DNA of 64,000 nt, from positions 1 through 64,000 of the forward strand of contig DASRHP010000004.1 of NCBI GenBank assembly GCA_035650475.1, written 5' to 3'. Source of the stretch: Candidatus Binataceae bacterium. GTDB lineage: Bacteria > Desulfobacterota > Binatia > Binatales > Binataceae. Below the pieces are notes generated by a model. It had not been told where the DNA came from. It did not search any database and worked only from the letters and a program-made list of their open reading frames with translations. How positions within the stretch are numbered: position 1 is the first letter of the stretch; the number at the start of each line of letters is the position of its first letter. Below are positions 20,762 through 29,137 of the stretch, in pieces. The position numbers were made by a program, and so were the translations under genes.

Positions 20762-21256
20762 TCAATCGGTTGCCGATGCGCGCGCGGTGCGCTTGCGGCA
20801 GTGGCGGCAGAGCGCGCGAATCTCGACCGAACATCCGAGCAGCTCGAACTCGCCCAGCCGCTCGCGCCCCTCAAGCAGGGTGTCGAACTCAGGCGCTTCG
20901 ATATCCTCGACGCGCTTGCATCGCACGCACACCACGTGATGGTGCGGACGGACGTTGCCGTCGTAGCGTGCGGTGTCGTGCAGCGGAGTAACCTTGCGCG
21001 CCTCCCCCACGTCGCACAGGCGCTCGAGCGTGCGATGGACGGTGGCGAGCGAGATGTGCGGATGCTCGCGGCGGACGCGGGTGTAGATGCGGTCGGCGCG
21101 CGGATGATCACCTGATTCCAGGAGCGCGCGCAGTACGGCGAGACGCTGCGGCGTTACAGGGATTTTCTTGCGCCGGCAGTTGGCGACGAATTCCGCGAGC
21201 CGCCTTTGGGCGTAGGCGCCGCGCTCCTGTCCGCCGAACAGCTTAACTTCGCTCAT
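20762..21256 (-). CDS. Fur-family transcriptional regulator (Fur/PerR-like)
   Basis: The 164-residue protein has the N-terminal winged helix with V-T-P-Q-R-L-A-V-L-R and H-I-S-L-A-T-V-H-R-T-L, followed by the metal-sensing domain with P-H-H-H-V-V-C-V-R-C and a second structural zinc pair C-R-H-C. The H-H-H-V-V-C pattern and R-Y-D-G-N are like PerR and Fur. The regulator probably controls itself, because a perfect Fur-type 7-1-7 palindrome abuts its start codon. I cannot decide between Fur (iron) and PerR (peroxide). The OPT transporter gene ends 63 bases upstream on the same strand. Confidence 0.9.
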   Translation of the reverse strand: MSEVKLFGGQERGAYAQRRLAEFVANCRRKKIPVTPQRLAVLRALLESGDHPRADRIYTRVRREHPHISLATVHRTLERLCDVGEARKVTPLHDTARYDGNVRPHHHVVCVRCKRVEDIEAPEFDTLLEGRERLGEFELLGCSVEIRALCRHCRKRTARASATD

Positions 21257-21319: not shown

Positions 21320-23119
21320 TCAAAACAGCGGCAGTTTGACCCCGGTCGTGACCAGCGCGCCGCTCAGCACGCCCATCAGCGCCTCGCCTGCCACCAGGCC
21401 GGCGGCCAACAGCACTCCCGCGCTACTTTCGCTCTCACCGCCCTCGCGCCGAACGGCGCGCGCCAGCGCTCCCAGCAGGATGGTGACGCTGAGCCCGAAC
21501 GGAAGATAAAGTCCGATCGCAACCGGCATCACGGGCGTCCGCCACTGCGAGCCGGCCCGCTCCAAGGCGCGGTCGACAATAACGAGCACGCTGGCGAGAA
21601 TCGCGCCCCCGGCGACCGTTGTCCACGGCAGGCCGCCTGCGAAGACTCCCTGCGCGACCTTGGCCATCAGGAAGGCCTGCGGCGCGGCGAGCGCGCCCGC
21701 GCGCGCGGTCGGTGTGCCGGCGATTCCATAGCCTCCGATCAGCAGATTGAGCACTGGCGCCATCACCAGCGACGACGCCAGCGCCCCGACGAGGACTGCA
21801 ATCTCGAGCGCACGCGGCGTGGCACGCACGTGAAAGCCGGTAGCGAGATCGTGCAACGAGTCGCCCGCCATCGCGGCCGCCGTGCAGACCACGGCGCCGG
21901 CCGTGATCGCGAGATGCGGCCCGATAGCGGCCGGCACGCCCCAGAGCTTGAGCATCAGCGCAATCGCGAGCAGCACAATGATCGTCACGCCGGAGACCGG
22001 ATTGTTCGAGGCGCCGACGATGCCGGTCAGGTAGCCGGCGATCGCGGTGGCGAAGAACCCGATGAAGGCGAGCGCCAGCGCGAGCACGCCGCTCAGCAGC
22101 GGGTTGCCGGACAGAAGGAAACAAATGACAAAGATGGCGGGGATGGATAGCGCGACTGCGCCGAGCACGGCGGTGGTCGAAAGGTCCCGCTCCTCGCGCG
22201 CGGGCGCGGCGAGATGCGAGGTGCGCGCCATGCGCAGGCTTTCGACGAGCGCGCGCCGGATCGGTGCGCGCAGCCGCCATAGCGTCGCGACTCCTCCGAC
22301 CAGCATCGCGCCCACGCCCAGATAGCGCACCTGGCCGCTCCAGATCGCCTGTGCCGCCGCCTGCGCGTCGAGCGGGCGCAGCTCCGGATGCGCCGCACTC
22401 AGGACCGGGATTGCCGCGAGCCATGCGATCGCGCCGCCGAGGAAGACGAGGCTCGCGATGCGCACGCCAACAAGGTAGCCGACGCCGAGCAGCGCCGCCG
22501 AGACGTCGGCCGCACCCGCCAACGCGCGGCTCCCGACCCATCGCGCGGCGGTAACGGCGCCGGGCACGACGCCAGCGATATCCTGCATCGCCTTGAGGGC
22601 CGCCGCGGCCAGCCCGCCGCATACCAGCGGCATGGCGCTCGCGCCGCCGGCCTCGCCCGCGCGCAACACCTCGGCGCAGGCGACGCCCTCGGGGAACGGC
22701 AGGCGCTCCTCGACGACATAAGCGCGGCGCAGAAAGACGACCAGCAGGCTGCCCATAGTGCCGCCCGCCGCGCACAGCATCGTAACATCGCGCCACGACA
22801 GCGCAGCACCTGGTCCGAGCACGATCAGCGCAGGGAACGTGAAGATCGCGCCTGCCGCGACGGCTTCGCCCGCGGACGCAATGGTCTGCACGACGTTGTT
22901 TTCGAGGATGGTCGAGCCGCCGAGTGCGCGCAGCACCGCCATCGAGATGACGGCCGCCGGGATACTCGCCGATACCGTCATCCCGGCATACATCCCGAGG
23001 TAGGCGTTAGCCGCGCCCAGGATGAGCGCGAGGGTAAGGCCGAGCACGATCGCGCGCGGGGTTATCTCGCGTAACGGCACGTCGGCGGGCGCCGGATGCG
23101 CGGCGGCTGGACGCGTCAC
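21320..23119 (-). CDS. OPT-family transporter (oligopeptide/metal-chelate type)
   Basis: The 599-residue protein has about 14-16 membrane helices. It begins with R-E-I-T-P-R-A-I-V-L-G and has the family's N-A-Y-L-G-M-Y-A-G-M-T and a further glycine-rich helix G-Y-L-T-G-I-V-G-A-S-N-N-P-V-S-G, both typical of bacterial OPT members. OPT proteins import peptides, or iron and other metals as chelates in the YSL branch. The GTG start at 23119 is weakly supported. The next gene is a Fur-family regulator, which suggests but does not prove metal transport. Confidence 0.85.
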   Translation of the reverse strand: MTRPAAAHPAPADVPLREITPRAIVLGLTLALILGAANAYLGMYAGMTVSASIPAAVISMAVLRALGGSTILENNVVQTIASAGEAVAAGAIFTFPALIVLGPGAALSWRDVTMLCAAGGTMGSLLVVFLRRAYVVEERLPFPEGVACAEVLRAGEAGGASAMPLVCGGLAAAALKAMQDIAGVVPGAVTAARWVGSRALAGAADVSAALLGVGYLVGVRIASLVFLGGAIAWLAAIPVLSAAHPELRPLDAQAAAQAIWSGQVRYLGVGAMLVGGVATLWRLRAPIRRALVESLRMARTSHLAAPAREERDLSTTAVLGAVALSIPAIFVICFLLSGNPLLSGVLALALAFIGFFATAIAGYLTGIVGASNNPVSGVTIIVLLAIALMLKLWGVPAAIGPHLAITAGAVVCTAAAMAGDSLHDLATGFHVRATPRALEIAVLVGALASSLVMAPVLNLLIGGYGIAGTPTARAGALAAPQAFLMAKVAQGVFAGGLPWTTVAGGAILASVLVIVDRALERAGSQWRTPVMPVAIGLYLPFGLSVTILLGALARAVRREGGESESSAGVLLAAGLVAGEALMGVLSGALVTTGVKLPLF

Positions 23120-23189: not shown

Positions 23190-23684
23190 TCACCTGTTCG
23201 CGGCCTGGTTGGAGTCCGGATCGACGTGCCGCTGGCCCTGCGCGTCCCATCCCTCGATCCCTTCCACCATCACGCTCACGTTGGTGTAGCCCGCGTTGAC
23301 CGCCCGCCGGGCGGCGTCATGGGAAGCCATTCAATGGGGGTTGGCGCAGTAAAAGACCAGCCGCGCGGCTTTGTTGGGCGGCAGTTCGGCCGCGACGTCG
23401 TAATGTTCGGGCGAGGGCAGCAGATGTGCGCCGGGGATGACGCCGTACACCTCGCGCTCGTGCGCGACGTTGGCGTCAAAGATAAAGACGTGCGCGTCGG
23501 GATCGCCGCGCAGCGCCGCGAGGTCGCGCACGTGGATAAGCTTGAAGTTGTCATGCTCCGGAGCGTTGCCGAGCAGCGCATTGAGCTTTCGCCAGGCCGA
23601 AGAGCCCACATCGCCGGCCGACGCCGGCGCTGCGAGGAAGCCCGCAGCCGCGAACAGTGCAATCGACGCGATCCACCGACGCAT
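23190..23684 (-). CDS. Exported rhodanese-like protein with in-frame TGA (candidate selenocysteine)
   Basis: The frame codes 117 residues, one TGA (23331-23333) and 46 residues, then TGA at 23190. A signal peptide (R-R-W-I-A-S-I-A-L-F-A-A-A-G-F...A-S-A) precedes a single rhodanese domain: H-V-R-D-L...H-V-F-I-F-D-A, I-P-G-A-H-L-L-P, then V-F-Y-C-A-N-P-H-[TGA]-M-A-S-H-D-A-A and G-Y-T-N-V-S-V-M-V-E-G-I-E-G-W. Family members with the pattern C-x4-C at this loop have a second cysteine exactly where the TGA falls, so I read it as selenocysteine-118. Coding homology continues intact after the TGA. AAGGG seven bases before the ATG supports the start. The gene is upstream of the OPT and Fur genes on the same strand. 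Confidence 0.85.
23300..23314 (-). promoter_or_regulatory. Candidate bacterial SECIS stem-loop of the rhodanese gene
   Basis: On the mRNA strand, nucleotides 17-31 after the in-frame UGA form a perfect 6-bp GC stem, C-C-G-C-C-C with G-G-G-C-G-G, closed by a G-G-C loop at nucleotides 23-25. This lies in the distance window expected for bacterial SECIS elements and has G as the first loop base. It is inside the coding region. Folding is by eye. Confidence 0.6.
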
Positions 23685-28159: not shown

Positions 28160-28206
28160 AGCGGGTGGGCGAGGACGGTTCAGGACCCCGCCCGCTTGCT
28201 ATTTTT
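28160..28206 (+). terminator. Rho-independent terminator after the DUF169 gene
   Basis: A ten-base stem, AGCGGGTGGG pairing with CCCGCCCGCT (one G-U), encloses a 17-base loop and is followed by the run ATTTTT. It closes the plus-strand operon of five genes and overlaps the 3' end of the convergent TusA-like gene, so it may act on both strands. Confidence 0.7.
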
Positions 28207-28441
28207 CGATCTTCAGCAGCCAAAGCCCGCCGCTTCGCTGCTGTTCGACCACCGAGTAGCCTTCGGCTTCGGCCGCCCGCGGGATATCGCGCGCGCCGCG
28301 CGGATCGTCGAGCGTCAGCTCCAGCACTTCGCCGCGCGCCATCCGCTCCAGGTGCACTTTGGCGTGCGCCCAGTTGAGCGGGCATTTGACCCCGCGCAGG
28401 TCGAGCTTGAAGATCGCGCCGCGGGCTTGCACAGCGATCAA
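28199..28441 (-). CDS. TusA/SirA-like sulfur carrier protein
   Basis: A ~80-residue sulfurtransferase-fold protein with the conserved motif R-G-V-K-C-P-L-N-W near its N-terminus, which holds the reactive cysteine of the family (the more common motif is C-P-x-P, here C-P-L-N). TusA-like proteins accept persulfide sulfur from desulfurases and hand it on for tRNA thiolation or cofactor synthesis. The start TTG is uncertain; GTG three codons later is another candidate. It lies directly downstream of the FrnE-like gene with in-frame TGA on the same strand. Confidence 0.75.
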   Translation of the reverse strand: MIAVQARGAIFKLDLRGVKCPLNWAHAKVHLERMARGEVLELTLDDPRGARDIPRAAEAEGYSVVEQQRSGGLWLLKIEK

Positions 28442-28513
28442 TCGTAGCCGATCGCGCGGCCTTTGTACCCGTCCGCGCCGCGCCCAGGCGAGCGCGCCGA
28501 CGCGGCCCGTCCG

Positions 28514-29137
28514 CTACTTGGAGGCTTCCAGCCGCTCGCGCGCCCGCTCCAGCACTCGCCGCATTACATCCTCGCTCTGCGCGCCGACCAGCGGCCAGTC
28601 GCCGATGAAAAACGTCGGCACGCCACTGACGCCGAGCTGGCTGGCGGCCACGGCGTGGTTGCGGATGCGGATCGCGTACTGCTCAGAGGCGAGCGCGTCG
28701 CCGAGCGCGGCGCGCTCGATTCCCACTTCGGCCGCGAGGTCGAGCAATGCGTCACGAATTCCGATGTTGACGCCCTCGGCGAAGTAGGCGCGGAAGATCC
28801 GCTCTTCGAAGGACTCGCCCAATCCGGCGTCGGCGGCGAATTCAGCGGCCTGGAGCGCGAGCAGCGAGTTGGCGTACATCTTCGGCGGTTTCATCACGAC
28901 CCCCGCCGCTGCGCCCATCGCGCTTATCCGCTCCCACATCGCCTGGCGCGTTTTGGGATCCATCCCGGGCCGGAACTGCGCGGGCGGCAAGCCCTCGGCG
29001 GGCCATTCCGGGTGTATCTGAAAGCCACGATGGGTGACGGTGAAGTCGAACTCCGACTTGAGCTTTCGCAACACGGCGAAGCCGATGTAGCAGAAGGGTC
29101 AGATGAAGTCGGAGAACATTGTGATGTTGATCGCCAT
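28514..29137 (-). CDS. FrnE/DsbA-family oxidoreductase with in-frame TGA (candidate selenocysteine)
   Basis: Translating from ATG at 29137 gives M-A-I-N-I-T-M-F-S-D-F-I-[TGA]-P-F-C-Y-I-G-F-A-V-L, and homology then runs to the stop at 28514 (207 residues). The family motif is S-D-x-x-C-P-x-C, so TGA replaces the first catalytic cysteine of the redox pair, giving Sec-13 with Cys-16. The C-terminal G-V-S-G-V-P-T-F-F-I contains the cis-proline typical of the thioredoxin fold. AAGGAG eight bases before the ATG supports the start. There is no signal peptide, so it acts in the cytoplasm. Most automatic callers would start this gene at the GTG after the TGA. Confidence 0.85.
29071..29088 (-). promoter_or_regulatory. 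Candidate bacterial SECIS stem-loop of the FrnE-like gene
   Basis: Nucleotides 11-28 after the UGA fold as A-C-A, bulged U, C-G-G-C, loop U-U-C, G-C-C-G, U-G-U. The loop lies at nucleotides 19-21. A bulged U in the stem recalls the known E. coli fdhF element, but the loop lacks the conserved G unless the closing pair opens, so support is weaker than for the rhodanese element. Confidence 0.45.

Follow-up and report, generated by a model that had tools for sequence, protein, structure and literature searches.

A gene on the minus strand of the window (the whole stretch of 64,000 nucleotides analysed here) is predicted to encode an exported, single-domain rhodanese in which an in-frame UGA at codon 118 is read as selenocysteine (Sec). 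From comparative sequence evidence we put the probability that this is a genuine selenoprotein at about 0.95. We also lean, with considerably less assurance, towards counting it as a further, sixth form among the seleno-rhodaneses, so far without annotation. This form would be an exported protein that stands alone and has a Cys-x4-Sec pair in its active loop. Its origin would lie in Binatia, where a Cys-x4-Cys rhodanese, itself exported and widespread, would have acquired Sec, later reverted in places and been kept once more as a Cys duplicate.

Translation of the minus strand confirmed the coordinates and the single in-frame TGA that a first-pass annotation had given, with no strand named, for this gene (Table 1). 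An ATG at 23684 opens a frame in which codon 118 is the sole internal UGA, and the plus-strand translation of the same interval gives no meaningful protein. With TGA read as U, the protein is MRRWIASIALFAAAGFLAAPASAGD...LVFYCANPHUMASHDAARRAVNAGYTNVSVMVEGIEGWDAQGQRHVDPDSNQAANR, followed by TGA. Its single Pfam match, to PF00581 (residues 54-148; 43 bits against a gathering cut-off of 22.2, E 6.8e-11), spans codon 118, and the active loop reads FYC-ANPH-U-MASH. The proposed export agrees with an N-terminal signal peptide recognized by inspection, from which we infer that the mature rhodanese would be exported in vivo.

Table 1. Positions, within the window, of the predicted seleno-rhodanese gene, its parts and its downstream neighbor
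Feature	Position	Strand	Details
Predicted exported single-domain rhodanese selenoprotein gene	23190..23684	minus	164 codons plus stop TGA (23192-23190)
Signal peptide (by inspection)	23610..23684	minus	MRRWIASIALFAAAGFLAAPASAGD; basic residues first, then a hydrophobic core and an AxA cleavage site
Cys113 codon	23346..23348	minus	First Cys in the active loop; invariant across aligned homologues
In-frame UGA, predicted Sec118	23331..23333	minus	Loop position 6, C-x4-U; from read-through translation and alignments
Putative bSECIS hairpin	23299..23315	minus	5' arm 23315-23309, loop GGC 23308-23306, 3' arm 23305-23299
OPT-family transporter gene	21320..23119	minus	Just downstream; neighbor in most family loci, an association only

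The UGA is shared by most close relatives of the gene. Read-through searching across 41 genomes from the order showed that most of those possessing the gene have close homologues with one UGA, and extension to the whole class brought the number of distinct loci with UGA at the identical codon to 27, of which 23 belong to the order's family and four (L138 to L141) to other families. Within the family, aligned proteins show 42-67% identity to that of the window, the UGA holds a constant position in the extracted loci (VFYC-x4-U), and none of these homologues has a UGA elsewhere. A separate scan of contigs, whose query was back-translated with Cys at the Sec position and so suited Cys forms rather than Sec forms, retrieved 64 loci, with the more distant relatives having a Cys codon at position 118; these come from Myxococcota, Elusimicrobiota and Pseudomonadota, with Shewanella, Ferrimonas and Sutterellaceae among the groups represented. 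The in-frame UGA aligns with the Cys of these homologues, as expected from the earlier proposal that Sec replaces the second cysteine of the loop. By eye, the N termini of the Cys homologues are signal peptides or lipoprotein-like. Across 49 aligned proteins neither Cys113 nor residue 118, be it Cys or Sec, varies. Invariant positions beyond the UGA are S121, A124-A128, G132, Y133, G142 and W146. Third codon positions 3' of the UGA vary at 0.527, versus 0.236 for first and 0.211 for second positions, the pattern of a translated frame.

These patterns bear directly on two more conventional accounts of the in-frame stop. A lone stop in an otherwise intact gene resembles a recent nonsense mutation, or could be a misread TGC or TGT, in which case the gene would be dead or ordinary; yet the UGA is retained in 27 loci from many genera, purifying selection acts on both sides of it, and the lineage's Cys copies carry other hairpin codons. 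Since the UGA is conserved in independent assemblies we consider this account already refuted and give it practically no weight. It is also very improbable that the UGA terminates a functional protein of 117 residues, with the remainder untranslated in this frame. Such a product is the expected output of standard gene callers and, as the first-pass annotation had foreseen, the list of open reading frames holds only the truncated frame; against this, the 46 residues past the UGA are conserved like those before it, and they make up the final helix-strand-helix unit of the rhodanese fold.

The perfect 6-bp stem with a GGC loop that had been noted 17-31 nt past the UGA lies exactly there (alignment columns 20-34). 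The hairpin starts 15 nt after the UGA, a seventh pair, G-U, extends the stem to 7 bp, and the spacing from UGA to loop is 22 nt. In the published bSECIS model the loop has 3-9 nt, the stem 4-16 bp and the UGA-to-loop distance 16-37 nt, with a G within the first two loop positions, mostly then G or U (PMC13188914); the Sec forms, with loops of GGC or GUC, seven pairs and 22 nt, satisfy these constraints. This fit, together with selection at the codon level, supports the earlier reading of the hairpin as a SECIS. Folding energy was considered as evidence and rejected: the free energy of the hairpin is not above chance (z 0.07 versus shuffles) and is ordinary for such G+C-rich DNA. The Cys paralogues also pair 86% of stem cells, because the AARRA repeat encodes a near-palindrome, and the Sec and Cys forms are told apart by codon choice and loop sequence, not by pairing energy. 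Taken alone, then, the hairpin carries little weight as evidence; that from the codons is strong.

The hairpin codons of the Sec forms are frozen as GCC-GCC-CGK-CGG-GCG. Counting from the UGA, codon 7 is GCC in 27 of 27 Sec loci; codon 9, for the second Arg, is CGG in 26 of the 27 and AGG in the other; and codon 8 is TGG in one locus and CGG or CGT in the others, in none of them CGC, which at 60% is the commonest Arg codon in local usage (CGG, 23.5%; CGT, 7%). The Cys paralogues encode the same amino acids mostly as GCG-CGC-CGC, which yields the loop GCC. In two loci (L017, L030) one pair has passed from C-G to U-A through synonymous changes on both sides, a covariation comprising one pair in two related sequences. 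In L139, where an Arg-to-Trp replacement turns AARRA into AAWRA, the stem is still kept by means of TGG-AGG. Over the 27 loci, the joint conservation of the UGA and the hairpin codons is far beyond chance.

The source genome contains all four genes selA, selB, selC and selD, for which the first-pass annotation had recommended a search. selB lies on contig 10 and is adjoined by selD (L009, 11108-12298), which has an in-frame UGA of its own near the N terminus (AAGUAGKLG); selA is on contig 9, and tRNA-Sec, with anticodon TCA, is on contig 6, ARAGORN having found no tRNA-Sec near selB. Of 41 genomes of the order, 37 carry selB, and no selB was found in G004, a genome estimated at 85% complete that carries a Sec form. 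Every computational check that the first-pass annotation had named comes out in favor of Sec at the second cysteine of the loop.

In a tree of 85 proteins, based on few columns and with many forks unresolved, the Sec forms and their Cys relatives cluster tightly, with four label changes versus a shuffled mean of 23. The simplest reading of these sequences is that Sec was probably gained once within Binatia and reverted to Cys twice in the family; two separate gains of Sec may provide an alternative history. One reversion would be represented by L033, the other by a clade in which L015 groups with the tandem Cys copies of L023, L024 and L026. L033 (1816-1875) is a Cys form with the Sec-type codons GCC-GCC-CGG-CGG, and likely records a recent change from Sec to Cys with a leftover bSECIS. 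In L023, L024 and L026 the exported rhodanese occurs as tandem Sec and Cys copies, a natural pair in each genome; because the two versions adjoin in the same genomes, the benefit of Sec over Cys is directly testable. Should the proposed sixth form prove correct, the reversions and the Cys duplicate would provide a natural comparison of Sec with Cys.

Reports of seleno-rhodaneses go back to the Sargasso Sea study, and a 2026 review distinguishes five rhodanese-like selenoprotein forms: UxxS, UxxG, CxU, UxxG and UxxxxU (PMC13188914). The term CxxxxU is absent from that review, the deep-Sep paper does not mention rhodanese, and our literature search found no link between Binatota and the window rhodanese. 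The window protein passes no NCBIfam cut-off, and no curated NCBIfam model covers the single-domain type. Among named families, TsoB (NF045694, form 5, UxxxxU) shares a rhodanese domain whose second redox residue is a Sec five positions after the first, but it is a DsbD-like fusion with two Sec and a model of 572 positions, which window residues 43-151 match weakly (40 bits versus a cut-off of 805); in the window protein Cys113 replaces the first Sec, giving CxxxxU, in a single domain with no fusion. LYCAU (NF041203, CxU) is likewise a small rhodanese whose active loop contains Sec and which has Cys/Sec variants, although its Sec lies two residues after the Cys, versus five here, and the window protein scores 28.7 bits against its cut-off of 115. 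TIGR03865, the PQQ-dependent catabolism-associated CXXCW motif protein, has a rhodanese-like C-terminal region with a second loop Cys but lacks Sec (34.6 bits versus 128). The UMAS of the window protein also reads as the UxxS of form 1 (WP_010941598; PMC13188914), a comparison by motif notation only. Also comparable are the exported LVFYCANxxC homologues of Myxococcota and others (L053-L109), which have the same domain, a signal peptide and both loop positions at 31-49% identity, with Cys in place of Sec; those tested passed no named family's cut-off.

The C-x4-U loop of the window protein is found as well in multidomain rhodaneses of the phylum (L150, L152-L164), possible relatives of form 1; proteins of the L150 type differ in their length of about 460 residues and in containing several rhodanese-like domains. 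The suggestion of a rare or undescribed enzyme therefore stands only in part: seleno-rhodaneses were already known and the loop is not confined to this protein, but the single-domain family has no NCBIfam model above cut-off. On these grounds we class the window rhodanese as a new, unannotated family among known seleno-rhodaneses, with form 1 compared by motif notation only. The family falls below every NCBIfam cut-off and is prone to systematic truncation by gene callers. Its recognition would give the uncultured Binatota a predicted extracytoplasmic selenoprotein family, and marks the exported C-x4-C rhodaneses of several phyla as probably redox-active.

The predicted structural model has a rhodanese fold (mean pLDDT 85, core >90) in which strand 108-112, loop 113-119 and helix 120-130 follow one another. 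Cys113 occupies the rhodanese catalytic position, where the central strand gives way to the loop and helix, as is characteristic of the catalytic Cys in PF00581, and Sec118 is placed at loop position 6. The nearest structures in the PDB are rhodanese-like proteins; farther away are the Leishmania As/Sb reductase (2j6p) and Cdc25. SelB and Sec-tRNA(UCA) are predicted to decode the UGA at codon 118 under control of the hairpin to yield the full-length pre-protein of 164 residues, which the signal peptide would direct to export, the mature fold then holding Cys113 and Sec118 in the active loop. Under the mechanism that we tentatively propose, Cys113 would accept sulfane sulfur as a persulfide, Sec118 would attack the persulfide so that sulfide is released or the sulfur passed on, and the Cys-Sec selenenylsulfide thereby closed might be reopened by an extracytoplasmic thiol system. 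The pair would thus serve as an extracytoplasmic sulfurtransferase or persulfide/disulfide reductase, which we consider the most likely mechanism while holding it with less than even confidence.

The roles of the two residues may also be exchanged, Sec118 attacking and Cys113 resolving, in a selenol-dependent peroxidase, disulfide reductase or oxyanion reductase built on the rhodanese scaffold. A CRxGxR-like pattern is the mark of classical thiosulfate sulfurtransferases, and the loop CANPHU is without one; the fold, moreover, is common to the Leishmania As/Sb reductase and Cdc25. A redox role would also be typical, selenoproteins of known function being mostly redox enzymes (PMC9312934). Yet Cys113 sits at the rhodanese catalytic position and never varies, the Cys homologues included, and we regard a selenol-led enzyme as a possible reading that we would not adopt at present. 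A further proposal, that the function is tied to the OPT transporter next door, the rhodanese reducing, for instance, a thiol- or metal-bound substrate before import, seems unlikely. An OPT gene does adjoin the rhodanese in most loci of the family, and in the window a Fur-family regulator gene (20762-21256, minus strand) lies just beyond it; several Sec-form loci, however, have no OPT gene in the 1.5 kb that was examined, nor do the Myxococcota Cys loci checked over the same distance. The OPT neighborhood is a lead for the substrate, no more. About 5 kb from the rhodanese, adjoining TusA-like and DsbA-like genes occupy 28199-29074 of the minus strand. The preferred reading remains the one in which Cys113 receives the sulfur and Sec118 resolves it.

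Other rhodaneses with in-frame UGA codons were encountered in the phylum. Exported multidomain proteins of about 450-530 residues with one conserved UGA (L150, L152-L165) occur in 14 genomes of another class; in L150, which also has a CxxCH motif, the UGA lies inside FYCEGFRU (loop FYCEGFRUVLSP). Within Binatia, a YCxxxxU rhodanese domain is joined to an Ion_trans_2 domain of potassium-channel-like type (PF00581 with PF07885) in L036 (1471-2781), L145, L146 and L147. This fusion, which passes no NCBIfam cut-off, is probably a second selenoprotein, since at least four genomes have its UGA at the same position of the loop.
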